DNA of 64,000 bases from Paracyclopina nana (Eukaryota; Arthropoda; Copepoda; Cyclopoida; Cyclopettidae). The notes beneath the pieces are model-generated. The model saw only the letters and a list, made by a program, of their open reading frames with translations. It did no database searches and was not told the origin of the DNA. This document shows, in pieces, positions 16,910 through 30,507 of the stretch; the stretch's first letter is position 1, and each line of letters begins with the position of its first letter. A program made the translations under genes and the position numbers. Location of the stretch: contig JAGUCH010000001.1 in the NCBI GenBank assembly GCA_019096065.1, positions 12,028,001 through 12,092,000 on the forward strand. The letters are read 5' to 3'.

Positions 16910-17390
16910 TGTTATGTTCTGGTCCGCCCGCCCCCATTTCTCCCGCTCATGGACAACTACGCCTGCCCTGCTCAGTCTGCTGTTTTTGTGCCAACTCACC
17001 GCGTTTTCTTTAGTACTGAACAAGAAGCCATTGAATAAACCCAAGTTTACTGCCAATTCTCTATATTTTATGTCACCATTTTGCTATTACAGTTATATGA
17101 TATGAACTTCTTGAGCATTGCTCATTTGCATCCTTCCTTGCCATTGCAAGAAGGCTGCTCCATTTAGGCCAGAAAGGAGGCCTTCCTCTCCACAAGCTTT
17201 GCTTGTACTTGTCTTTGGCATTGCCATCCTGGATTGAATCCTATCCTGGGCTGCCATCCTGCCTTGTTAGCTTGCCCCTTGCTGGAAAGTAAGAGTTAGG
17301 TTAATTAGCATTGCTACTTGTCTTCGCATCGTATCGCGATCATTGTCATCTAACATCGGTTCAAGCCTTGTTGGGTTGCAGAACATATCA
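16910..17390 (+). repeat. 5' LTR of the BEL/Pao element
   Basis: 481 bp, begins TGTTATGTTCTGG and ends CAGAACATATCA. It has the same length as the 3' LTR with 4 substitutions. It contains three GCATTGC-centred palindromes (17113-17123, near 17220, near 17312). The frame of the gag-pol ORF is open back into the LTR, but the first in-frame ATG is at 17446. Confidence 0.95.
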
Positions 17391-17393
17391 GTT

Positions 17394-17411
17394 TGGCGCC
17401 CAACGTGGGGC
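17394..17411 (+). other. Primer-binding site
   Basis: TGGCGCCCAACGTGGGGC starts 3 nt after the LTR. It begins TGG, complementary to the CCA end of a tRNA, and continues for 18 nt as expected for a minus-strand primer site. I have not identified the tRNA. Confidence 0.8.
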
Positions 17412-17445
17412 CCTCGAATCCACCCTAGAAAAAGAGTCTCTTCCT

Positions 17446-20400
17446 ATGCCACGTAATCGCAAGGCCAACTCTGGAGGGAAGAAGAAAGTTGCAACTGAAC
17501 CCACCAGGAAAAGCCGACGCAACCAAGGGCAAAGTCCATATGATTATCAGGGTAAAATCAATCTAGAAATATCCCCTTATCATCAAGCCCTTAGGGATCT
17601 TCGTCAAGAAAGCGCCAAAGAATCCGATTCTGACGCGAGAGCTGCACTGTTTCAAGACGTGGCCGCTGAAGTCTCTGATCCGGATTACGTGGAAGAAATT
17701 GTCTCCCTAATCCAGTCTCCTCAAGCTCAACGTTCTAGTCCATCTTTTGAGTCCACTCCACTCCCCTTTAAGGCTAAGAAGACGAAGATGCCTGTTCAAC
17801 ATACACCTCCTAATACAGGAGGAGCAGGTTACAATCCGGATCAATCGGTCTTTCCTGATACCCCCATGCCAGTAGGAAGCAGAAGATCTCATCCCATTCC
17901 AGGTGTTAATCCTGGAGGCACAGGAGCTTCTGCCTCAGGCTTTCAGGCTCCTCAGTTGCCCCCTGTTGCGCAAGGCGCACTACCCCCAAGCTCTACTCCC
18001 CATCGGGGAACTACAGGCATTGCCGGTTCATCGAAGACCACGCCTTCCAATACCACCTCTACGACTGTCATTGCAAATCCTGGATTGACTGCTGGAAAAA
18101 ACACTGGAGGTTCTGTCCCAGGTCGCAATACTTCGGGAAGAGTTCTAGGCATGCAAGCAGGTAACCCTATTCCACCCCCTTCAATGGGTCCAACGATGTC
18201 ATCACAAGACGAAATGGGATCTCAGTCGTCATTGGCGGCCTCCGCTTCTGCAATGCAGCCGAGAGATTCTCATGTTCCTGCTGGAGGCAAAAGAAAAGCC
18301 ACAGGGGCAGGCAAGAAATCCACCACGTCAAAAGCAGCCTCTGATCTTGAATACACTCCACGGGGCTCTCGATCAAGACCCAACGCTGCCAAGAAAACGA
18401 CCAAACAAATTCAAGATGCCAAGAGGGCAGAGGTAGAGGCTTTTGCTCACACTGAATCTCTGCAGAATTTGTTTCAGATCACCAATCCCTTTGTGAGGAA
18501 ACATAGGGCAGCTTTCCTTGACGAGAAGACAAAGACCACCAAGGCTGATGCAAATGAAGCTCTACAGCACTTGAGGTATTATGTCAAAGAGTATGATAGA
18601 CTTTACAAGCTTTATGAAGAAGCAGTTCGCATTGCGAATTTGGAACCTTCTTCCACTTTGAAGGAAGCTTATGTCAAAAACTATCGCGCCTGCCAAACTC
18701 TGCTCCATGCCGCAAATGAGATCCTGAGAACATACAAGAGCCCCACTTCAAATGCACCCAATTCTGCAGAAGAGGATCCTCTTGCCGATTACTATCAACA
18801 ATTGGAGCGTGAAGCTCAACAGACCGATCAAGAATCCAATTCCATGCAACCGGATGAGGGAAGTGGAGCTCGTGATCAACACGAAGCGAGAGTGGAGGTT
18901 TATGAAACTACGGGAGGCTGCCATGTCATCATGAATGATGGTAACTACTATTATCTCGATGCACAGCAGGTCAACAATGCAGCCACCGCCAATTGGCTCA
19001 ACAAGCAGCTGCAAGTGAGGCCAGGCACCTTTTCCCGGGAAGCTGCAATGCAGCCGAGGCAGTCTCAGCAAGGTCAGCCCACGGCTGAACCAGAAGCTGC
19101 CGCTGGAGTGGGAAATGAGAGCCAGCAAGCGGGCTCTCGTGGAATTTCCACCTCAACGCACAACTCAGCTATGCTGGAAAGTGCGAACGGCACTTCGCGA
19201 CGCGAAATGCCCATCGGAAATGTTGCCTCAAATCAACCCTCGCAAACTAAACCTCCCGACCCTGGAGTTCTAATACGGGCAGCGAGGGATTTTGGGGGTG
19301 CAATCTCACATTTCAGGGCGTGTCATAGCACAATGCAAAATGAGATCGAATATGGGACACCCGCTGTTGACGTTCTTGCTGACTACGGAAGTTATTCACA
19401 ATCTTTGATGTCTGCGCAAGAATCTGCACAACGTTTTGAGGCTGCTGGAGGTCAATTGGATGACGCTGATCGACGCGCACTTGTACAGGGCGACCGCATG
19501 ATTGAAACTCTCAGAGGAATGGCTAAAGAGTTGCCCGCAGGAGCTGTGGCATCTCGACAACCACAGGATCTTTACATGGCTAGCCAACCTCCATCTAATT
19601 CAGCCCCTCCCAATCCAACGGCACAAAGCTCGGCCCCACCCATGCAGCCACCACCTGTGAGAGGTATTGTGAGTGGAAGTGTGTATGTGCCAAGTAGACA
19701 GAACACTACAATGTCGCAAACCGTGGTCAGTCAAGCTTCAAGCGCATTGCGCTATCGTCCAGGATTACCAGGGGGAGCTCCACCAACTACCACAAGCACG
19801 CCCCATTTTTGGCCAACGCATTTCACAGCCCCGCCACCAACTCGTGGTAATCACCCTCATGCAATGAGTGCTGCTCCGCCACAGGTGCAACCTCCCTGCC
19901 AACCTCCGCCAAGATTTAACCAGGCGCCCATTTACAGCAATGCTGTTTCTGCCTCTATGAACCCCCTGTTTCCTCCTCACTATAGTGCGCCACCTTCACA
20001 AGGTAACAATTTTCCGGCTCCCATCCTCAGTCATGGAACCGCGTACTCTCATCCAAACCCAATTATGTCGAGTTCTCATGAAGCAGGAGGTTATTCAGTG
20101 AGCCAACAACCCAATTTGATTCCCGGTTTCAATAACCTTGGAGGACAGCAGCCTCCTTACTTTCAACCTAACTTGGTTCCCGCTGGACAGTGTGCAAGCA
20201 TGCAAAATGTAGCTCAACCTCCGCATGTGCCTTTTCAGTCTGCATTGCAGCCTCCCATGCTAAATCAACATGGGTACCCCATGAACAATCAACAATCGCA
20301 AAATGCAGCTGGAACAAATCCATTTGCCCCGCCCTTTGCTGCCGCCCCGCCTCCGATTGGTCAGCCTGCATTGCAGGCTGGTAACCAGAGTTTTGGCCAT

Positions 20401-23400
20401 TATCAGGCGCCTCATCTTCAGGCTGCAATGCAGCATTATGGGCAATATGGCTATCAACCTCAACAACCAAATCGATACAAGGCTAAACTTCCTCCAGTCA
20501 ACATGTACAAATTCACTGGTCATGACATCTCTGAATTTTACGCATTTAGAGATCAGTTCCGCTCATTCATACATGAAGATCCCACCATGCCTTGGCCCGA
20601 GAAATACTCGAGACTCATGGAGCTGACTCAAGGCGGACCAGCGGGAGATTTCGTCTCGAGGCAGCCTCAAACCGAGGCTGGATATCTGTATTGCTTGGAG
20701 GCTCTGCAAGCAGATTATGGATGTCCCAAACTGCAGATGGATTGTTTGATCAGTAAATTGATGAATATGTCACCACTTGATCATGAAAACGCGTCCTCAG
20801 TCATGACAGCCAAATTGGCTGTCGGCGACATCTATCGTCATGTCACAGCTCATTGGGGCTATCCCGGCATTGCCGCCTCTATGGATTTGCATGACTCTTA
20901 TATTTTCAGATCGCTTCCAATGACACTAGGAACCAGAAACGACATTGATCAGTTCGTCAACGGAAGAAATGACGACTCCAATTCCTATCTGAACGGTCCC
21001 TTGTTCGAAAAGTGGTGTAACAAGAAATTGCATCGTCTCAGGTCTCAATCCATTAAAGCCACCATCAACAATCCCACACCAAAGCCCAAAGCTGCAAGAC
21101 CTGTTCCCGGTGCATTGCACCACTTCGAAGCAACTTCAGAGGACCTAACAAAAGAGGAATACTTGCCTGCATACTACCCAGAGGAAGAAGCTCGTGCCTC
21201 GTCCAACGTTATGCAATTTTCCTCCAGTACGGCGTCAACTTGCAATGAAACCGAAGAAATACTAATGCCCGATGAAAGTGGTCAAGGCTTCACAATCCTA
21301 ACGGTAACAAAAAATGACCAAAAATACTATGTAAAGTGCCCTGAGTGCAGCTCAACTGAGCATCGGTTTTTCAATTGTCCCAACATCTTGGCATTGCCAC
21401 CCAGAGGACAGGCTCTCAAGTGTTTCAAATACAAGGCTTGTCTTCGCTGCATGGCAGGAGCCCACAACACCAGAGAATGCATCAGGAGCTGGAAATGTGA
21501 AAAATGCCAATCTGACAGTCACCACACAAGACTCCATGGAGCCTGGGACCACAAGGACAAGAAAAATGAAACCACAGAGGGGCCAAAAAACCAAGGCAAC
21601 CCGCAAAAGAACTCGAATGAGAACCTGGTTGCACAATTGGCGGAAGCTTTGCAACAATTGAACAAGAAAAATGACCCCACTGAAGACGTCGACCCTATCA
21701 AAGAAGAGGTAAGAAAGAGCAATGCTCATCTTCACTTCACTTCTGTTTCCGCCAGTGAATTTGATCAAAGCGAAAACCTTTCACAACTTAATGACAGTTG
21801 CAATGCAACTCTCGAGGATGTATTTGTTGACCCAAAAAATGACGCGTCCTCGGTTTTGGATCACACAAATGGTGGGGGGGGTAACATAGATCAACAGGAT
21901 AGTGCCATCATTGAGGCCAAGGTTTCCACAACCTCGTTGAAAATCGCGAACTGCTCAAAAATCTCAGACGCAGCTGGCAAGTCTTCAAAGCAGAGCATTG
22001 CTCTAAACAACGCAACAAATAGGCCAGCTAGAAATTCTAGAGAGCTGTTGAGTTTTTGCGTCGTACCACTGTTAGTTGCCAACCCTTCGCATCCAGACGA
22101 GTATGTCAGGGTGAATGCCTTCTTGGACACGGGAGCTCAACTGTCACTTGTCTCTGAATCTCTGGCAGACAAGCTCAAGTTGGACGGTGTATCGGATGAT
22201 CAGATCCTTAAGATGATTGCTACCACTGTCACCGTTACCAGCAATGCTGTAACATTGAGGGTAAAGTCTCCCATGGGGGGACCTCATCATGATTTGGCTC
22301 TTCACACCATTGACAATCTGCCATCCACTGTGCACGTTCCACCGTTGGACAGACTCAAGAAAAAGTTCGAGTTTTTGTCCAGTCTGGAGCTGCCAACCTA
22401 TGCCAGCCCTCCTCATCCTGATCTCCTTATTGGTATTGATTACTATAATTTGATCATGCCTGAACACATCGTGCACAAGAAGGATGGAGAGCCATACATT
22501 TACGACTGTGCCTTGGGAAGAGTTGTCACCTATTATACTCCTGAGCAAGTAAAAGGGGCCTCTCAGTATGGTGTCATGTTGGGAAGCATTGCTTTACCCA
22601 CTGGAGATGAAGAAGAACCTCCTGTCCCTCCGTGCCAATTGTGTGAAGGTAAGGACATTCCGCCACCGAATGAATTGTTGAAGGCCCTTTGGGAATACGA
22701 CGATCCGCTGGGACCACCGCCCCTCACAATGTTAAGTGTGAATGACAAACGCGCACTCGACATCCTTACCACCACCATATCGCAAATTGATGGCAAACAA
22801 TACCAGATGAGCCCAATGTGGAGGCCAGGAGAGCCTTATTTTCTCAATAACCGCCTTGCGGTCATGAAGGCCACCGCCGCTGTTGAAAGAAGGCTAAGAT
22901 TGTTTGACATGCCCACATATGAAAAAGCCACCAAAGAGCTCAAGGAGTGGCTGGATTCAGGGTTTGTCAGGATCCTTGACCCTGAAACGGAAGACCTCGA
23001 TGATGGTTATTATTTGGACTGGTTACTGGTGGAAAGAAAAGACAAGCCTTCAATGCCCGTCAGGGTTGTGTTCGATGGATCAAGGAAACATCACGGTAAA
23101 AGCTTAAATGATGCCCTTTTGCCCGGCCCGAAGTTGCAACGCGACGTTTTCGAGATTCTCGTCGGGGCTCGCGAAAAACCCATCATAATTGTCACGGATA
23201 TAAGTAAAATGTTTCTGCGTTTTGCCTTGGATCCGGCCTCGAGAAAATTTCATAGGTTTGTGTGGCAGGGAGTTCACTATGAGGCTGTATCAGTGGTGTT
23301 TGGCACTGCAAGTGCCCCTTGCATGGCGAATTTCGCAGTCAAGCACCACATTTCAAAATATCAGGATACGCACCCATTGGGCTATCGCGTCCTCGATAAC

Positions 23401-26355
23401 AGCCTCTACGTTGATGACGTTTTTGCCTCAGTGGAGGACGTGGCCGAAGGACGAGAGACTGTGAAGCAGATTCTTGATTTAGGGGAGTCAGGTGGGATGC
23501 CATTCAGGAAATGGGGCAGCAATGTTGCCTCAGTTCTGGATGGGATTGATGATGCCCTCAAGCTTCCTGGATTTGCCGTCAATGATGAGAAAGCTGAGGT
23601 CACTAAGGCTTTAGGCATGTATGTGGACTGCCAAGGAGATCAGATCATATTTCAGCCACCGAGTTATGACACCATGCGCAATGCGCCACTGACTCTGAGG
23701 CTCATGGCTCAATATGTGCCAAGGCTCTTTGACCCGTTGGGGCTTCTGGCTCCAATCATTCTTCGGGGCAAACTTCTCATACAAAGAGTAATGGCGCTTC
23801 GTACCGTATTTGATGTTGATTGGGACACCGTATTTGACATGGTTGATTCAGAGGAGATTGATTTAATAACCAAAGAATGGGGCCACTATGTGGAGGAAAT
23901 CTCAAAAATTGAATTAGTTCGAATTCCTCGCGCAATGCGCCACAAACCCGCAAAGCGGATCTCCCTCCATGTGTTTTCTGATGCGAGCGAAGCGGCAAAG
24001 GGAGCTTGCGCTTATATTCGTGTGGAGTATGAAGAAGGAAACTATGACTGCACCTTGCTCGCATCGCGACTTAAGATCACTCATCTGACTGAATCTCGCT
24101 CCATGCCAGAGCTTGAGCTTGATGGATGTGTTATGGGCTCTGATCTTTGTGTGGATGCGATCAGATCTCTGGAGAGGGTTGATGAAGTGCATCTATGGAC
24201 AGACTCGCAATGCGTTCTCACATGGATCTCCAAGCCCGCCTGCAAGTATAAAAAATATGTAGCTAGGAGAGTCACCTTGATTGTAGAAAAAACCATCAAT
24301 TATAAGTGGCATCATGTTCCTGGAAAAGTCAATTCGGCCGATTTAATCACGAGAGGGACCAGCGTAGCTGATCTTGCAGATTCTGATCTCTGGATCCATG
24401 GACCAAGGTTTCTGAGGGCAAGTGACGAGCATTTTCCAAAGTGGACTCCCGAAGTAACTGATGATGAGAGAGCGGCATTGGAAAAGTATGAAAAGACTGG
24501 TCTGAGTGCAAGGCGTGCAAAGAAAGTCATAAAAAAGATTGTCTTGGTCAACCAATTTCAAAGAATGGGAGGGTGTGAGGTTCCCAGACACCTGAAGCCC
24601 ACTGAAGCCATCAAAGCAAGCTGGGGTAACATGCGCAATGCGCATTGCCATGTAGATCTCTCTCGTTTTAGCAACTGGACTCGAGCAGTCAGAGCACTGT
24701 GCTATGCCAGAAGATTTGGTTTGTTCGTGATCTACAGAGAGCCCGTGGACGAAAAGGGCGAAGACCTCACACCCGAAGAGCTCAATCTTGCAGAGGCTAG
24801 CATTGCTACCTGGCTGCAGCAAAAGGAATACTCAAAGGAGATTGATCACTTTCTTGAGAGAGCTATCTGGCCAAAAGGAAGTCGACTCGCCCTCATGGAT
24901 CCTGTACTTTACCCTGGAGGAGAACTGAGGACCAAAGGAAGGCTCGATGCCTCGCCAGTTCAGTGGATAGGAAGAAGGCAATTGATCGTACCAGGTGCTG
25001 GGAGAAGGTTGATCCTGGAAGACTATCATAAGAAGCTCGGTCACGGATTGGGGAGGCTGCGTTATGTAAGCGAAGCACTAATGAAATATTGTATTCCAGG
25101 CGCAAAGCGCATCATGACTGAAATCCTGAACAACTGTGCAAAATGTGCGAGGCACAAATTGGTGGCATTGCCACCTCATATGGGCCAACTTCCCCCGCAC
25201 ATGGTGCCCTTGACAGAATTTCTGCCCTTCAAATTTACAAGCTTCGATATGTGTGGTCCATTCGCAACCCAGTTCAACCGTTCGCAGTACAACATGTACG
25301 TGGTGGTCTTCATTTGTCTACACTCGAAAGCAATTCACTGCGAAGAGCTTTACGATATGACCACTGAAAATCTGATGCGAGCCTTGGAGATGTTTGTCGC
25401 CAGAAGAGGATGTCCTCACACCTTGAGAAGTGACAATGGAAGCAACTTCTTGGGCTGCAGAGAAGCCATCAGAACCAATCCCCGCTACCAAGAGCTGCTG
25501 GAAAAATTGCAAGTGATCGATTGGGAAAGATTAAGACAATATGGAGGGAGAATCGGGGTAGTCCAATGGACGCTTTCACCTCCTTTCTCGCCCAACTTCA
25601 ATGGTTTGGCTGAATCAGCCATAAGGATCTTCAAGAGAGCCCTCTACCGGGAATTCTCTGGACGTGTCACTGATCTTGAAGACTTTCGCTACATTGTAAT
25701 AAAATCTGAGGGTTTCGTCAATGGCAGGCCAATTGGAGAATTAGATGGTTATTTTCTCACCCCTAATCATTTTCTGACACGCGGACCACCAGGGGAAGTA
25801 CTTCCGGTCATTGACCCTGAGCAACTCAAAACCCTTGAGGCAAGGTATCGCACAATTGAGGCCGCATTGCAGTCTCTATGGGATTTTTGGACCACTGAAT
25901 GGGTGGAGCAATTGAAAAAGATGCCAATCTGGCAACACCATAGAAAAACTTTGAAGACGGGGGATGTGGTGGCCGTGTTGGAGAAGCCTCAATTCCACAA
26001 GAGATTTTGCTGGCCTTTGGGGATTATACACAAGGCCATTCGCGATCAAGATGGAGAGTGCAGACGAGCCATTGTCAAGATCGTCCCGCCAGGAGAAGTC
26101 GAGCCAGTTTATTACGAAAAATCTGCGCAATTTCTCATTCCCCTCAACGTGTTCAGAGAATCAGATGAGTTAATGGTCTACAACAAGGTAGGTGAATCTA
26201 TTTCACCCGACTTAGCACATTTGGCTGACGAAAAGGATTGGGAAAGTTTAGAGAGATACATGGCTGCAATGCAGGCTTCTCACAATACACAGGACGCTTA
26301 TGATGTGCAGCCGCCCATACTCTCCAATCGCACTGTCACCAAAGGCAGTGTTTAA
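17446..26355 (+). CDS. Gag-Pol polyprotein of the BEL/Pao element
   Basis: A single ORF of 2969 residues from the first in-frame ATG. Residues 1 to about 1010 are a long gag leader: basic at the start, then Pro/Gln-rich at about 770-1010. About 1018-1210 resembles the BEL gag-like domain (DUF1759 type). Cys/His clusters at 1298-1360 form a zinc-knuckle region. The aspartic protease has FLDTGAQLS with Asp 1561. Reverse transcriptase shows VTDIS (Asp about 1918) and YVDD at 1988-1991. RNase H has FSDAS (Asp about 2179) and WTDSQ. The integrase has an HHCC zinc finger (His 2528 and 2533, Cys 2564 and 2567) and a DDE core at about 2601, 2663 and 2723, followed by a DUF5641-like tail (GDVVAVLE). 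No stop or frameshift separates gag from pol, so processing must be proteolytic. The gag portion is much longer than usual for BEL/Pao elements. Confidence 0.95.
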   Translation: MPRNRKANSGGKKKVATEPTRKSRRNQGQSPYDYQGKINLEISPYHQALRDLRQESAKESDSDARAALFQDVAAEVSDPDYVEEIVSLIQSPQAQRSSPSFESTPLPFKAKKTKMPVQHTPPNTGGAGYNPDQSVFPDTPMPVGSRRSHPIPGVNPGGTGASASGFQAPQLPPVAQGALPPSSTPHRGTTGIAGSSKTTPSNTTSTTVIANPGLTAGKNTGGSVPGRNTSGRVLGMQAGNPIPPPSMGPTMSSQDEMGSQSSLAASASAMQPRDSHVPAGGKRKATGAGKKSTTSKAASDLEYTPRGSRSRPNAAKKTTKQIQDAKRAEVEAFAHTESLQNLFQITNPFVRKHRAAFLDEKTKTTKADANEALQHLRYYVKEYDRLYKLYEEAVRIANLEPSSTLKEAYVKNYRACQTLLHAANEILRTYKSPTSNAPNSAEEDPLADYYQQLEREAQQTDQESNSMQPDEGSGARDQHEARVEVYETTGGCHVIMNDGNYYYLDAQQVNNAATANWLNKQLQVRPGTFSREAAMQPRQSQQGQPTAEPEAAAGVGNESQQAGSRGISTSTHNSAMLESANGTSRREMPIGNVASNQPSQTKPPDPGVLIRAARDFGGAISHFRACHSTMQNEIEYGTPAVDVLADYGSYSQSLMSAQESAQRFEAAGGQLDDADRRALVQGDRMIETLRGMAKELPAGAVASRQPQDLYMASQPPSNSAPPNPTAQSSAPPMQPPPVRGIVSGSVYVPSRQNTTMSQTVVSQASSALRYRPGLPGGAPPTTTSTPHFWPTHFTAPPPTRGNHPHAMSAAPPQVQPPCQPPPRFNQAPIYSNAVSASMNPLFPPHYSAPPSQGNNFPAPILSHGTAYSHPNPIMSSSHEAGGYSVSQQPNLIPGFNNLGGQQPPYFQPNLVPAGQCASMQNVAQPPHVPFQSALQPPMLNQHGYPMNNQQSQNAAGTNPFAPPFAAAPPPIGQPALQAGNQSFGHYQAPHLQAAMQHYGQYGYQPQQPNRYKAKLPPVNMYKFTGHDISEFYAFRDQFRSFIHEDPTMPWPEKYSRLMELTQGGPAGDFVSRQPQTEAGYLYCLEALQADYGCPKLQMDCLISKLMNMSPLDHENASSVMTAKLAVGDIYRHVTAHWGYPGIAASMDLHDSYIFRSLPMTLGTRNDIDQFVNGRNDDSNSYLNGPLFEKWCNKKLHRLRSQSIKATINNPTPKPKAARPVPGALHHFEATSEDLTKEEYLPAYYPEEEARASSNVMQFSSSTASTCNETEEILMPDESGQGFTILTVTKNDQKYYVKCPECSSTEHRFFNCPNILALPPRGQALKCFKYKACLRCMAGAHNTRECIRSWKCEKCQSDSHHTRLHGAWDHKDKKNETTEGPKNQGNPQKNSNENLVAQLAEALQQLNKKNDPTEDVDPIKEEVRKSNAHLHFTSVSASEFDQSENLSQLNDSCNATLEDVFVDPKNDASSVLDHTNGGGGNIDQQDSAIIEAKVSTTSLKIANCSKISDAAGKSSKQSIALNNATNRPARNSRELLSFCVVPLLVANPSHPDEYVRVNAFLDTGAQLSLVSESLADKLKLDGVSDDQILKMIATTVTVTSNAVTLRVKSPMGGPHHDLALHTIDNLPSTVHVPPLDRLKKKFEFLSSLELPTYASPPHPDLLIGIDYYNLIMPEHIVHKKDGEPYIYDCALGRVVTYYTPEQVKGASQYGVMLGSIALPTGDEEEPPVPPCQLCEGKDIPPPNELLKALWEYDDPLGPPPLTMLSVNDKRALDILTTTISQIDGKQYQMSPMWRPGEPYFLNNRLAVMKATAAVERRLRLFDMPTYEKATKELKEWLDSGFVRILDPETEDLDDGYYLDWLLVERKDKPSMPVRVVFDGSRKHHGKSLNDALLPGPKLQRDVFEILVGAREKPIIIVTDISKMFLRFALDPASRKFHRFVWQGVHYEAVSVVFGTASAPCMANFAVKHHISKYQDTHPLGYRVLDNSLYVDDVFASVEDVAEGRETVKQILDLGESGGMPFRKWGSNVASVLDGIDDALKLPGFAVNDEKAEVTKALGMYVDCQGDQIIFQPPSYDTMRNAPLTLRLMAQYVPRLFDPLGLLAPIILRGKLLIQRVMALRTVFDVDWDTVFDMVDSEEIDLITKEWGHYVEEISKIELVRIPRAMRHKPAKRISLHVFSDASEAAKGACAYIRVEYEEGNYDCTLLASRLKITHLTESRSMPELELDGCVMGSDLCVDAIRSLERVDEVHLWTDSQCVLTWISKPACKYKKYVARRVTLIVEKTINYKWHHVPGKVNSADLITRGTSVADLADSDLWIHGPRFLRASDEHFPKWTPEVTDDERAALEKYEKTGLSARRAKKVIKKIVLVNQFQRMGGCEVPRHLKPTEAIKASWGNMRNAHCHVDLSRFSNWTRAVRALCYARRFGLFVIYREPVDEKGEDLTPEELNLAEASIATWLQQKEYSKEIDHFLERAIWPKGSRLALMDPVLYPGGELRTKGRLDASPVQWIGRRQLIVPGAGRRLILEDYHKKLGHGLGRLRYVSEALMKYCIPGAKRIMTEILNNCAKCARHKLVALPPHMGQLPPHMVPLTEFLPFKFTSFDMCGPFATQFNRSQYNMYVVVFICLHSKAIHCEELYDMTTENLMRALEMFVARRGCPHTLRSDNGSNFLGCREAIRTNPRYQELLEKLQVIDWERLRQYGGRIGVVQWTLSPPFSPNFNGLAESAIRIFKRALYREFSGRVTDLEDFRYIVIKSEGFVNGRPIGELDGYFLTPNHFLTRGPPGEVLPVIDPEQLKTLEARYRTIEAALQSLWDFWTTEWVEQLKKMPIWQHHRKTLKTGDVVAVLEKPQFHKRFCWPLGIIHKAIRDQDGECRRAIVKIVPPGEVEPVYYEKSAQFLIPLNVFRESDELMVYNKVGESISPDLAHLADEKDWESLERYMAAMQASHNTQDAYDVQPPILSNRTVTKGSV

Positions 26356-26646
26356 TCCAATCGTCAAAATACAAAAATCGTGCGCATTGCGCACAACACT
26401 CTAGTCAAAATATGTAAATGCATTGCTCGTTCATAAAATAAGTTGCGCATGACTCTGCTCTCATTAGCATCTCAATTATTGTTATATGTTGCGTGATTTC
26501 GCATTGCGATGTTGCGCGAGGTTTCCGCGGAAAGTTTTCTTGCGTTGCAAAAAAGAGAAACCAGTTTATTGACTTCCGTTTCTCGCCACGCATTGTTCAT
26601 CAACAAAAGCAAATAAAATTGCCATCGTCGGAAAAGTGAATTCCTT
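26356..26646. other. Spacer between gag-pol and ORF2
   Basis: 291 bp without a gene. It contains a perfect 15-bp palindrome at 26380-26394 and another at about 26483-26493, both centred on GCATTGC. It could hold a splice acceptor for a subgenomic RNA expressing ORF2, but I cannot single one out. Confidence 0.6.
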
Positions 26647-27849
26647 ATGGAAAATAGTGTCCCAATTGGGGGGACCATACTGTCCCCCACCCCTTTGGAG
26701 GTTGAAGGCCAGCCTCCCGTGCAAGGCCCGTCGATTGAGGTCAACGAGTGCAAAGAAAATGCAGCGGTCATCGAAGAATTTGACAATCTCCGCGGTCAAC
26801 ACCGAGGCAGCATTGCTGTCCGATCAACAGGTAAAATTGAGTCTAGCATTGCTACTCATTCTCCCTCCCAATCAACTGCCCCGCCCACAATAGAAGAAAA
26901 AATGGAAACTGATCAGCCGCAGCCTCAACAATCTTCTCCTGGTTACACCCCATCTGAAATGTCAGTCGGCTCACCATCGAGCGTGGTCCATGAAGGTAGT
27001 ATATCAACAAGTATACTAGGGTCCGAAAGTGGAGACGAGCTCAACCTTCACGCGGAGGCCAGTGAGGCCGATTTTGGGCTTCTTGAAGAGGACGAGGAGG
27101 AGGGGGAGAAGCAGAAGAAAGTTGACTCTCCTACCAAAAGCGCCCCCGCCTCCAGGAGCTCGTCGCATCGGCGCGACGATCACCAACGTGATCGCGAGCG
27201 TCATGGAAGAAGGTCGAGATCCTCTCCCACGCCATCTACCTCCAGGTCTTCGTCCTCAAGAAGAGCACCGCTCGAAAGATCCAACCTCTCCACCTTCAAA
27301 ATACCCCGTTTACCAAGACGTGATCGACGTGAAGATGCAAGGAGAGATAGAGAGGTTGCCAGGAGCTCAGTATTCTCTCGGTTGGGCAGTCGACCACAAA
27401 TCCCCGAAGAGGTGGAAGAAACTTCAACGGGCGATCAAGAGATGGAAGTTGATTTTGGGGAGGTTTTTTCCCCTTGGGAGCGTGGTTTTTCAATCTTTAA
27501 AGATGAAACCGGAAAAGTATGGCCAAATAATCTGCATCGTTTGTTTTCAGGACTCGGTCTACCCTCAAAACACGAGGAGAGGAGAGCAATGCTCGCTGAC
27601 CATCTACGAGTCCTTGGGATGGCCATGAAGGCTACCACTTTTGTCTTTGAGGATGAAATGGAACACCTCGCCGGGGATCAGCTGTTGAAGCATTATTGCG
27701 ACCCCAGTGTGGCCTTTCTAGCCCATTCCTGGTCTTATGGGCCACCCGACCCGGAAGACCCAAGGGACCACGCCTCCAGGATCGCTGACCCCGCCTATGC
27801 AGCCCGGACTGACCACACCCGCATTGCGGCACTCCACCTGAAGTGGTGA
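26647..27849 (+). CDS. BEL/Pao ORF2: RS-rich protein of unknown function
   Basis: 400 residues from ATG 26647 to TGA 27847-27849. The first 130 residues are polar and low-complexity, then comes an acidic stretch (EEDEEEGE). Residues about 165-245 are rich in Arg-Ser and Arg-Asp dipeptides (RRSRSSP, SRSSSSRR, RRDRREDARRD), like RS domains that bind RNA or splicing factors. The last 130 residues look globular (FSPWERGFSIF ... PDPEDPRDHAS) and match nothing I recognise. The stop codon overlaps the start of ORF3. It lies in the place where env is found in BEL/Pao retroviruses but has no signal peptide or membrane segment. Confidence 0.75.
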   Translation: MENSVPIGGTILSPTPLEVEGQPPVQGPSIEVNECKENAAVIEEFDNLRGQHRGSIAVRSTGKIESSIATHSPSQSTAPPTIEEKMETDQPQPQQSSPGYTPSEMSVGSPSSVVHEGSISTSILGSESGDELNLHAEASEADFGLLEEDEEEGEKQKKVDSPTKSAPASRSSSHRRDDHQRDRERHGRRSRSSPTPSTSRSSSSRRAPLERSNLSTFKIPRLPRRDRREDARRDREVARSSVFSRLGSRPQIPEEVEETSTGDQEMEVDFGEVFSPWERGFSIFKDETGKVWPNNLHRLFSGLGLPSKHEERRAMLADHLRVLGMAMKATTFVFEDEMEHLAGDQLLKHYCDPSVAFLAHSWSYGPPDPEDPRDHASRIADPAYAARTDHTRIAALHLKW

Positions 27850-29996
27850 TGGAAGTCTGCCATCCAAAGGCTGCCAAGGTCTATGAGAGGTACGAGTTCA
27901 GCTGCATCTTTGCCACCCCACCCGTGCACCCGTTGAAGAGGGGCCCTCTGGATGGAGCTCAGCTCGAGGCCGCGAAGGTTGTCTGGGAAGCCAGGAAAAG
28001 GTTCGCCAAAATCATCGTTTTGGGCATGTTCAGAAGCATTCCCCCCAATGAGGACGAATGTTTGAGGCAAGTTTTGTCTCTGGCACCCTCTATGGCGGGT
28101 GAGGAGGTTCCTGAGTGGCTCACTCTTTATTGGCACCACTTCAGCCAGAATCCATCTGTGGCTATTATGGCCGACCCATTTCATGAGCCAGATCTGCTCA
28201 TCGCAGCGCTTCGCACCACTGCCATTGGTGCTCCCGCATTGCGGCCACCACCACCAACTGGAGGAGATCCTCAGCCTACATGCCCTCGAGTGGAAGCAAT
28301 GCTTCGAGATCCTCACTGCAATGCAGAATGCCCCGCCCTCAACTGTGCCATCCATCGTGTGCCAGAAGGGCCTCACGATGCACAAGTTCGAGGTGAAAAA
28401 GGAGAGCATTGCTACTCCACCTTCAGCCTCCGTGAGGCCATTGAGGCCATCAAACTGAAGGCCGGGCCCTTTGATTGCCGTGGATCTGGTGGCAAGAGGA
28501 ATGTCCTCGTCCTTGAGAGGGACGACCAGTGGCCCGCCTTGGAAGCAATGCTTGAGGACAAGTACTCCTTCTTCAGCGACATCGATGCCTGGACGGCCAT
28601 GACTAGTCACATGTACAGTTGGACTGTGCCAGCTCTGGAAAGGGAGAAGTTGACGACCAATGGCAAGCCCAATGAAGGATGCTTCACGCTGCTTGGAGTG
28701 GGGAGCCTCACTGGCACGCTTCTCATCATTCAGTGCAACTATGGCGGCACTTCGCAACAATATTTTGGTGGTGCCAAAATCCCGAAGAAGATCATTGATC
28801 TTCTGGAGTCGCCTTCCATTCGGGTCACTGGCTTCAATATTGGCGAGGAGAAGCGATATGCTGATATTGGCATCGAAATTCGTGCCAAGTGCGAAGCCAA
28901 TTTGGTGGGCATTGCCCTCTTTCCACAGGAAGGAGTCTCTCCCGCGGCCATGAAGACCAATGTCACCTTCATGGCTGACAAACTGGGCTCTGAGGCCGTG
29001 CCGGTCATGGTGACATCTTCCCGAGGTGGAGCCAAGGTTCAAGTTGAACCTCCAAGGAAGATCTTCCAATACAAGAGGGACGCCGATGACTACAGCGTCT
29101 CATACAAGAAATGGTCCTCCCAAATGCAAATGTATGTGTGGATCAATCACGCCATCGCTGCGGCCTCGGTCGTCACTCTCGCGGTCAGAGGAATGCTGAG
29201 ACATGGACTTGGCTTGGATGCTGACGCATTGCGTCACATCCATTTCTACCTGGATCGGGTCAGGAACAAGCGAAGTTCTGGCCAACTTGCAAAAACGGAG
29301 GAAGAGATGCGACCATTCAATAAGAAAGAGTTGCCAACTTCGTCCTCGCATTGCGAGGACGGGCAAGTTGCCCTCTGGATGTGGCTGCAGGAGAACAAGG
29401 CCACCTGCATCAATGGCATCGTGGCTACACGCACCTACTTGCGTAAGGGTTCGCGGCGCTATGCGCTCGACCTACATGCGGTTTCCAAGAAGTTGGCGCA
29501 AGACTTTCTCGCCATCGTGCGGCGGAGCCCTGGCAAGCTCAATTGGAATGACGTCATTGACATTGTATTCCACATGGGGCGCATTGCGCCCCACTTTTGT
29601 CGACGCTGTGGATCCTTCGATCACGAGATTGGGGCCTGCAATGCAGGCCCAGTGCGCTGCATTTACCCGCTGTGTGGGTCTTCGGGCCACACTGTCATGG
29701 TGTGCGAGCTCCTCATGACCCGCTGCGAGCTCTGTCAAGAGCTAGGGCATCGCCCCGAGCATCACAGCTATGAGGGCTCCCAAGGAAAGCCTTGGATGGT
29801 CCTCCTGGAGGAGGCCGCCCTATGCAGCCTACTCAACATCAAAGGATTGCAGCTCCACGAAGGCTTCCAGCTGCGTCTCACTCGCGAAGAAGATCGAGTG
29901 CTCCTTCTGCCCTACAACCGGCTTGTGCAAGAAGGAAATGCCACCCGTTTTGTGTTGGACACACGCCATGTGGCCTTCGCAGCCAAGTGGCCTTGA
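27849..29996 (+). CDS. BEL/Pao ORF3: zinc-knuckle protein, possible exonuclease-like fold
   Basis: 715 residues from the ATG at 27849, whose A is the last base of the ORF2 stop (TGATG), in the -1 frame relative to ORF2. Translation by stop-restart coupling or by -1 frameshifting is possible. Residues about 584-640 hold three consecutive knuckles: CRRCGSFDHEIGAC (C-x2-C-x4-H-x4-C), CIYPLCGSSGHTVMVC (C-x4-C-x4-H-x4-C) and CELCQELGHRPEHH (C-x2-C-x4-H-x4-H). Residues about 254-360 have a pattern reminiscent of DEDD 3'-5' exonucleases (LLIIQC, then LLESPSIRVTGFNIGEE), but the acidic active-site residues are not evident. The function is unknown; a second gag-like or RNA-binding role fits the knuckles best. 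Confidence 0.75.
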   Translation: MEVCHPKAAKVYERYEFSCIFATPPVHPLKRGPLDGAQLEAAKVVWEARKRFAKIIVLGMFRSIPPNEDECLRQVLSLAPSMAGEEVPEWLTLYWHHFSQNPSVAIMADPFHEPDLLIAALRTTAIGAPALRPPPPTGGDPQPTCPRVEAMLRDPHCNAECPALNCAIHRVPEGPHDAQVRGEKGEHCYSTFSLREAIEAIKLKAGPFDCRGSGGKRNVLVLERDDQWPALEAMLEDKYSFFSDIDAWTAMTSHMYSWTVPALEREKLTTNGKPNEGCFTLLGVGSLTGTLLIIQCNYGGTSQQYFGGAKIPKKIIDLLESPSIRVTGFNIGEEKRYADIGIEIRAKCEANLVGIALFPQEGVSPAAMKTNVTFMADKLGSEAVPVMVTSSRGGAKVQVEPPRKIFQYKRDADDYSVSYKKWSSQMQMYVWINHAIAAASVVTLAVRGMLRHGLGLDADALRHIHFYLDRVRNKRSSGQLAKTEEEMRPFNKKELPTSSSHCEDGQVALWMWLQENKATCINGIVATRTYLRKGSRRYALDLHAVSKKLAQDFLAIVRRSPGKLNWNDVIDIVFHMGRIAPHFCRRCGSFDHEIGACNAGPVRCIYPLCGSSGHTVMVCELLMTRCELCQELGHRPEHHSYEGSQGKPWMVLLEEAALCSLLNIKGLQLHEGFQLRLTREEDRVLLLPYNRLVQEGNATRFVLDTRHVAFAAKWP

Positions 29997-30013
29997 AGAC
30001 CTCAGCGTGGTCC

Positions 30014-30022
30014 AAGGGGGGA
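30014..30022 (+). other. Polypurine tract
   Basis: AAGGGGGGA lies 4 nt upstream of the 3' LTR, the expected plus-strand primer site. Confidence 0.75.
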
Positions 30023-30026
30023 CAAC

Positions 30027-30507
30027 TGTTATGTTCTGGTCCGCCCGCCCCCGTTTCTCCCGCTCATGGACAACTACGCCTGCTCTGCTCAGTCTGCTGT
30101 TTTTGTGCCAACTCACCGCGTTTTCTTTAGTACTGAACAAGAAGCCATTGAATAAACCCAAGTTTACTGCCAATTCTCTATATTTTATGTCACCATTTTG
30201 CTATTACAGTTATATGATATGAACTTCTTGAGCATTGCTCATTTGCATCCTTCCTTGCCATTGCAAGAAGGCTGCTCCATTTAGGCCAGAAAGGAGGCCT
30301 TCCTCTCCACAAGCTTTGCTTGTACTTGTCTTTGGCATTGCCATCCTGGATTGAATCCTATCCTGGGCTGCCATCCTGCCTTGTTAGCTTGCCCCTTGCT
30401 GGAAAGTAAGAGTTAGGTTAGTTAGCATTGCTACTTGTCTTCGCATCGTATCGCGATCATTGTCATCTAACATCGGTTCAAGCCTCGTTGGGTTGCAGAA
30501 CATATCA
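30027..30507 (+). repeat. 3' LTR of the BEL/Pao element
   Basis: 481 bp, same ends as the 5' LTR, four substitutions. It is followed by ATGG (30508-30511), the right copy of the target-site duplication. Confidence 0.95.

Follow-up and report, generated by a model that had tools for sequence, protein, structure and literature searches.

A BEL/Pao long terminal repeat (LTR) retrotransposon of the copepod Paracyclopina nana was found to carry, from end to end, 49 copies of the palindromic core GCAWTGC (W, A or T), most of them flanked by arms that vary from copy to copy yet remain complementary. The element lies on the plus strand at positions 16910-30507 of the window, the whole stretch of 64,000 nucleotides analysed (C1:12028001-12092000 of a 92-Mb genome in 10 contigs, C1 and so on); positions without a contig name are those of the window. 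Related Pao clades of the same genome carry other codes, and the clades are labelled accordingly: A, GCAWTGC (window element); B, GCC-W-GGC; C, GCG-W-CGC; D, CTTAAG; and E, GAAA. The sites are dense, follow an exact unit, are under constraint, differ in code between clades and turn over in position, and those of the GAAA clade are specific to the plus strand. They are a real, strongly constrained and clade-coded set of foldback tags, of which the closest known kind, judged by way of working, would be dispersed packaging signals. In the explanation that we favour, at about even confidence, they are dispersed RNA hairpins serving as clade-specific self-tags on the genomic RNA, read for packaging by the Gag of the element or by the zinc-knuckle protein of its 3' open reading frame (ORF); the packaging role, the reader and its binding are putative.

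Excess of GCAWTGC cores in the element

The 49 cores of the element (32 GCATTGC and 17 GCAATGC), a density of about 3.6 sites per kb, were compared with the remaining 50.4 kb of the window, in which only 8 (5 and 3) were found. Arms of at least 5, namely at least two complementary pairs beyond GCA/TGC, were present at 43 of the 49 cores in the element and at one of the eight outside. A first-pass annotation, made from the letters alone, had put the two forms at about 29 and 16 in the element and at about eight elsewhere, close to the present counts, and all seven long palindromes that it had listed were recovered at their coordinates: T-centred at 20362-20380, 26380-26394 (spacer), 29222-29236, 29341-29361 and 29575-29593, and A-centred at 21796-21810 and 29632-29650, with arms, in order of position, of 9, 7, 7, 7, 10, 9 and 9. 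As it had also noted, the sites are spread over both LTRs, the spacer between pol and the 3' ORF, every ORF and all three codon frames.

A first-order Markov model of the element gave 3.9 cores (maximum 10 in 300 runs) and 0.22 cores with arms of at least 5 (maximum 2), against 49 and 43 observed. Under a codon-preserving shuffle, cores with arms of at least 5 numbered 0.36 (maximum 4 of 1000) against 22 observed in the ORF at 17311-26352, 0.04 (maximum 1) against 4 at 26647-27846, and 0.21 (maximum 3) against 9 at 27843-29993; cores with whatever arms numbered 4.3 against 26 in the first of these. Over both kinds of shuffle, cores were about 6-13 times fewer than observed and cores with arms of at least 5 about 40-200 times fewer. 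Chance and codon use were thus ruled out as the cause. Of the two results that the first-pass annotation had said would refute its claim, neither was obtained, the shuffles falling far short of the observed counts and the relatives that retain the core having complementary arms. Odd palindromes with 5-bp arms around other cores numbered 29 in 16910-30507 against a Markov mean of about 15.5, a modest excess outside the code.

Genome-wide, the palindromic 11-mers GCGCATTGCGC and GAGCATTGCTC were found 143 and 158 times, and the same sequences read backwards 10 and 11 times; the non-palindromic GAGCATTGCGC was found 26 times, and 5 times when read backwards. Among the matches listed, 39 of 54 copies of GCGCATTGCGC on C1 lay where clade A elements are expected to extend (manual count), and many of those on C3 sat in tandem arrays. 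Such arrays, carrying GCGCATTGCGC at intervals of roughly 169 bp or multiples thereof, were seen at C3:760753-762284, 3978710-3982099 and 4119737-4125659, and are possibly a satellite sharing the clade A motif. Pairs of GAGCATTGCTC about 13.4 kb apart flank two relatives with 66-67% reverse transcriptase (RT) identity (C2:8640454/8653834 and C4:4136800/4150163), where they perhaps lie in the LTRs.

The 11-bp unit of clade A and its conservation

Seven related loci (C3:2.17, C1:7.18, C8:4.13, C1:9.80, C6:2.00, C1:5.39 and C6:4.45 Mb) were compared with the window element. They showed 69-76% DNA identity to it where alignable, and those at C1:7.18 and C1:9.80 were 99% alike. The stretch taken for each locus, flanks included, contained 25-48 cores, of which 23-41 had arms of at least 5. 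Over the 274 distinct cores of the window element and the seven loci, the two outer pairs were complementary in 257 and 238 cases, the pairs further out in 124, 106 and 85, and complementarity then fell to a background near 27%. The clade A unit is 11 bp long, NNGCAWTGCN'N', and constraint ends sharply at ±5.

Every Watson-Crick pair is accepted at the free positions of the stem. At the window sites the first free pair was AU in 14, CG in 13, UA in 10 and GC in 6 cases, and the second was CG in 15, GC in 12, UA in 10 and AU in 4, with no G.U at either. Covariation of the free pairs, computed on 46 of the 49 window sites with the three 3' LTR duplicates left out, was 0.520; over 500 shuffles it was 0.138 ± 0.026, and sliding gave 0.08-0.15. 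The fixed core with variable yet complementary flanks that had been described by eye is borne out by these values.

Conservation was measured on 92 orthologous site pairs that keep the core, from eight chosen and overlapping family pairs of 28 possible; as the core is kept, positions ±1 to ±3 match by definition. Identity was 0.90-0.98 at ±4 and ±5, 0.92 at the centre and 0.55-0.85 outside the unit, and where the core was kept the arms stayed complementary. In 57 further gap-free site pairs of the eight family pairs the core was lost. These counts cover gap-free alignable sites only (30 of 49 for the window element against fam6), the others being dropped. Compensatory pair changes between orthologous sites were few (0-2 per family pair), indicating that individual sites are maintained and do not drift. 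At site positions the aligned relatives had non-palindromic DNA of equal length, which disfavours insertion of ready-made palindromes; this too refers to gap-free alignable sites.

Two families within clade A carry CAT/ATG loops besides ATT/AAT: 27 such sites in fam11, with the two outer pairs complementary in 26 and 24, and 18 in fam12, with 16 and 15. In both families the loop has changed and the same kind of stem has been retained.

Different codes in sister clades

The first-pass annotation had treated the sites as a property of one element; they proved to be a clade-wide trait, and within the one genome sister clades have codes that differ but are built alike. Relatives with 63-66% RT protein identity (L029, L030 and L032) carry GCC-W-GGC, those with 53-55% (L033 and L034) carry GCG-W-CGC, and one element with 47% (L038) carries CTTAAG in the palindrome NCTTAAGN'. 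Longer stretches, one element for each of clades B to E, were then counted. Clade B (L043+L044) had 29 GCCWGGC, with the outer pairs complementary in 25 and 23, and clade C (L045+L046) had 19 GCGWCGC, with 18 and 18. Clade D (L047, the same element as L038) had 33 CTTAAG in 10 kb, every one of them flanked by a complementary pair (GC 23, CG 6, AT 2, TA 2); complementarity beyond this first flank was slight, 13 of 33 and then background. Clade E (L056+L031), at a distance to A like that of B, had 12 hairpins of at least 4 pairs closed by GAAA, among 80 GAAA, and none closed by TTTC. The stems of clade E are of any sequence, end in the GAAA loop, a GNRA-type tetraloop, and occur on the plus strand only. 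In a second piece of clade E (L057, 1.2 kb), 7 of 13 GAAA had at least 3 pairs with G.U allowed. Codon shuffles gave 0.46 against 13 observed for B, 0.17 against 12 for C, 1.55 against 15 for D and 0.61 against 12 for E.

One relative, L035, was mixed, with three GCGSCGC and three GCGWCGC. No convincing code was found in the 3-6 kb examined of each of L036, L037 and L039-L042, the last four having 41-43% RT identity. In L040 (C1:14146000-14149000) five-base GAAAG loops were weakly enriched (3 hairpins among 13 occurrences), perhaps as another code. L039-L042 and L037 (41-48% RT identity) seem poor in odd palindromes with 5-bp arms, having 3, 1, 0, 0 and 0 in 3 kb each, below the counts for the remaining elements of the sample. 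In L056+L031 (C3:1041500-1048900) CAA triloops were enriched on the plus strand, with 9 hairpins among 212 and none for TTG; CAA loops also occur in fam11 and fam12.

On an RT tree of 22 rows the codes cluster. Clades A, C and E each form one branch, and E groups with the three B rows (100/99), the order inside this group being open; a long-branch warning applies to L037 and L042. In aligned pol, clade A sites coincided with B sites in none of 22 places and with C sites in none of 21, and B sites with C sites in none of 13, against 5 of 23 and 5 of 22 coinciding within clade A. As no positions are shared from one code to another, the tags have moved to new places, and what counts seems to be how many there are and how densely they lie, not where. 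Position-specific regulatory sites are unlikely on the same ground.

A candidate reader and the proposed mechanism

If the sites are packaging tags, the genomic RNA of clade A would be studded with minimal hairpins, each made of two free complementary pairs, a G-C and a C-G pair, and a triloop A-(U/A)-U. In the sister Pao clades the loops would be C-W-G, G-W-C or GAAA, and one element would present the palindrome NCUUAAGN'. The folded RNA would be what is read, in the clades other than E as well. The reader would be a nucleic-acid-binding protein encoded by the element, either Gag or the protein of the 3' ORF, which bears three zinc knuckles. Through many weak sites acting jointly, this reader would pick out its own RNA from the numerous Pao RNAs present in one cell, coat it and package it; sites and reader would therefore change together as lineages split. 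More tentatively, and below even confidence, we suggest a modular code of self and non-self, in which tens of minimal foldback tags on each genomic RNA, with clade-specific loops read by a co-evolving zinc-knuckle protein, would keep apart the genomic RNAs of clades sharing one germline; codes would switch from triloop to triloop or from triloop to GAAA tetraloop, or a hairpin would give way to an 8-nt palindrome, the tags moving to new positions each time.

Candidate readers are present in cis. CCHC-like cysteine patterns were seen by eye in Gag-Pol. Three CCHC-like knuckles are conserved close to the C-terminus of the 3' ORF, which in most relatives forms open frames of about 900-1600 amino acids. 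A Pfam search of three 3' ORF members gave no family above cut-off, zinc knuckle alone appearing below its cut-off. None of 7998 scored candidates in a protein collection reached an E-value of 0.001 with the window ORF3. The AlphaFold model of ORF3 alone had a mean predicted local distance difference test score (pLDDT) of 32.5 and was not used, and no locus was confirmed when viral_contigs was scanned for Pao relatives. The zinc-knuckle 3' ORF is present in clades A, B, C, D and E and in the L037 lineage. Within the sensitivity of two queries, it was not found beside L036 or L039-L042, and no code was found there either. This distribution fits the 3' ORF protein as a candidate reader.

RNA or DNA as the folded molecule

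Several dispersed potential stem-loops sharing a loop motif are present, and specificity for the plus strand is clear only in clade E, with 12 hairpins for GAAA against none for TTTC. In the same clade the number of hairpins rose from 12 to 20 when G.U pairs were added and from 12 to 15 when A.C was added. The predicted stem probability was higher on the plus than on the minus strand in clade A (0.659 against 0.594 in six of the eight families, n=195, p 0.009), at CAT/ATG sites (0.668 against 0.491, n=38, p 0.006) and in clade E (0.717 against 0.561, n=11, p 0.03). The RNA level is well supported only for clade E. In seven 5' LTRs, all 24 cores are T-centred, at about ten independent positions by manual reading.

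Several points weigh against packaging hairpins in RNA. The excess of predicted stems over transplanted contexts is weak in clade A (p 0.108; 0.022 in a cruder comparison) and at CAT/ATG sites (p 0.087), and it is absent in clades B and C, which show no significant difference. In clade D, represented by one element, the predicted hairpin value is 0.124, below transplanted contexts. Mismatches at the free pairs of clades A to C include 12 G.U and 13 A.C among 74; G.U is thus not favoured, which is unusual for an RNA helix. The loops come in both orientations (ATT/AAT, CAG/CTG and GAC/GTC), as in double-stranded DNA sites, and the 16 cores in the spacers between pol and the 3' ORF were 11 T-centred and 5 A-centred (manual count). 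A simple hairpin model accounts neither for strictly Watson-Crick pairing that excludes G.U nor for the CTTAAG element, which is not predicted to form a hairpin. As for the reader, L037 has the 3' ORF and yet no code was found in its 6.2 kb, and the correlation between 3' ORF and code is confounded by phylogeny, with few independent lineages. As to packaging, the internal sequence of Ty3 in yeast is reported to be dispensable when proteins are supplied in trans (PMC4974528); dispersed signals are therefore no general need of LTR retrotransposons.

Sites in DNA are the most serious competitor, although we hold them to be unlikely: a protein of the element would bind the palindromes in duplex or extruded chromosomal DNA, for example in counter-silencing of the VANC type. 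The strict Watson-Crick pairing and the strand-symmetric mismatches counted above would suit such sites, as would loops in reverse-complement pairs, the span from LTR to LTR and the perfect even palindrome of clade D with complementary flanks at 33 of 33. VANC proteins have family-specific motifs (PMC5735166), and these lie mostly in noncoding tandem repeats in one orientation, unlike the Pao sites. Against DNA sites, the clade E motif is strand-specific with a non-palindromic loop, CAT/ATG loops break the palindrome while the stems remain, and a dimer needs no complementarity at positions where it is not base-specific. The dimeric DNA-binding protein of classical type that the first-pass annotation had proposed leaves the variable yet strictly complementary outer pairs unexplained. 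A hairpin or other strand-folded structure, hairpins being its other proposal, is supported by the covariation, the loop changes with stems kept and the GAAA clade. The earlier interpretation is in this way supported in part. We put the odds of RNA against DNA at between 3:1 and 4:1, clade D being the main difficulty.

Other explanations

RNA hairpins might instead be read by a host protein, or serve export, localisation, stability or shielding from small-RNA silencing rather than packaging. The structural evidence is identical to that for packaging tags, and the spread over the whole RNA fits coating. Differing codes in sister clades of one host favour a reader encoded by the element, and we consider this reading as a whole quite unlikely.

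Pairing between RNA molecules, in which two genomic RNAs of the same family would anneal at many self-complementary sites as a family-specific dimerisation, is decidedly improbable. It would cover clade D (NCUUAAGN') and the intolerance of G.U, which would give two mismatches per duplex. Self-complementarity is full in D, but the centre is mismatched in clades A to C, CAT/ATG sites have three mismatches, and the loops of E are not self-complementary. For Ty3, a single short palindrome near the 5' end has been proposed as the site at which the genomic RNA dimerises (PMC11381356), against dozens over 13 kb here.

A mutational origin, by snap-back copying or correction of quasi-palindromes during reverse transcription, had also been suggested in the first-pass annotation and is now highly improbable. 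By reasoning, such a process would yield complementarity without sequence preference and without G.U, but it leaves the fixed, clade-specific core and the conservation boundary at exactly 11 bp unexplained. In several gap-free alignments neither arm equals the arm of the relative, so that the site was not made by copying one arm. Self-targeting by the integrase of the element was rejected: targets are palindromic in some LTR retrotransposons such as Tos17 (PMC6911290), but the 4-bp duplications, readable in 5 of 11 copies, are unlike GCAWTGC and not centred on it, and their even centre does not fit.

Comparison with known systems

The nearest likeness of the proposed packaging hairpins is to the packaging signals of viruses such as MS2, satellite tobacco necrosis virus (STNV), parechovirus and hepatitis B virus (HBV), known from the packaging-signal-mediated assembly of single-stranded RNA viruses. 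There, many stem-loops over the genome share a short loop motif in variable surroundings (PMC6281560); the loop motif reported for HBV is RGAG. The Pao sites are likewise many potential stem-loops with a common loop motif and variable surroundings. They differ in belonging to an LTR retrotransposon, in strict Watson-Crick stems, in a core evident from word counts and in sister clades of one genome that differ in code. The VANDAL elements of Arabidopsis also carry dense, family-specific short motifs, which change between families together with the VANC protein of the element, but those motifs are sites in DNA, most of them within noncoding tandem repeats and in the same orientation (PMC5735166). 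The Pao sites, in contrast, are dispersed through coding and noncoding regions, have both centre orientations, and have arms that are free but complementary.

In Ty1 and Ty3, short palindromes or structures of the genomic RNA have been proposed to pair between two RNAs or to be read by Gag (PMC11381356; PMC4974528). The mapped Ty elements described there are near the RNA ends, whereas 19-49 sites per stretch were found in the Pao elements, from end to end in clade A. Packaging sequences of LTR retrotransposons are not clearly defined even in yeast, and scattered sites may contribute (PMC4974528). In its domain set and LTRs the window element resembles other BEL/Pao elements, from which the extra zinc-knuckle 3' ORF and the dispersed code set it apart. 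Among the matches listed in a literature search, none described hairpins of this dispersed, family-specific kind for Pao elements. If packaging tags are what they are, the sites would be an unusually clear natural case of dispersed packaging signals. As they are visible by eye, come in several codes within one genome and have candidate readers in cis, packaging specificity and the co-evolution of code and reader can be tested directly between clades.

Anatomy of the window element and positions of the sites

The copy at 16910-30507 is a BEL/Pao LTR retrotransposon, with the Pao set of peptidase, RT and integrase domains and LTRs, and is bounded by a 4-bp target duplication, ATGG. Its 5' LTR (16910-17390, the end being placed by its distance from the 3' LTR, a constant 13117 bp) and its 3' LTR (30027-30507) are 99% alike over 300 nt aligned and contain three sites each. 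The Gag-Pol ORF (17311-26355, 3014 amino acids in the mechanical listing) includes DUF1759, DUF1758, RVT_1, Peptidase_A17, H2C2, rve and DUF5641; in Pfam, Peptidase_A17 (1.3e-32), DUF1759, DUF5641 and rve were above cut-off, and RVT_1 and DUF1758 were below theirs. ORF2 (26647-27849) is the first part of the 3' ORF; ORF3 (27843-29996), with three CCHC-like zinc knuckles, is the second. These two overlapping frames of the window copy stand against a single frame of 1130 amino acids in the copy at C3:6.04 Mb, one of four more near-identical copies matched, the others being at C1:11.73, C1:11.74 and C1:14.51 Mb. The five readable target duplications are all of 4 bp: ATGG, AGCT, TGTT, TTAA and TGCT.

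The sites, all taken from the pattern count on the plus strand, are as follows apart from the seven long ones above. Each LTR has T-centred sites with arms of 6, 5 and 5, at 17112-17124, 17216-17226 and 17306-17316 in the 5' copy and at 30229-30241, 30333-30343 and 30423-30433 in the 3' copy. Between them, T-centred sites have arms of 4 at 18016-18024 and 28405-28413; of 5 at 20240-20250, 20865-20875, 21389-21399, 22584-22594, 24798-24808, 26499-26509 (spacer), 26808-26818, 26844-26854, 27819-27829, 28234-28244 and 28907-28917; of 6 at 18626-18638, 19741-19753, 21109-21121 and 21992-22004; and of 7 at 25161-25175. A-centred sites have arms of 4 at 24206-24214; of 5 at 18248-18258, 21717-21727, 22239-22249, 23676-23686, 23930-23940, 26264-26274, 27584-27594, 28316-28326 and 28543-28553; of 6 at 19042-19054, 19934-19946, 20422-20434 and 28293-28305; and of 7 at 24631-24645. 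Cores without paired arms, all T-centred, lie at 24642-24648, 25864-25870 and 26420-26426, the last in the spacer.

A search for nematode SL1 was negative in this genome and equally in 14 control genomes, which makes it uninformative. Elsewhere in the genome, the contig ends examined (L048-L051 and L053) showed irregular TTAGG-type repeats at three ends; the start of C1 is rich in CCTGG repeats, and the end of C8 carries what appears by eye to be 18S ribosomal DNA.

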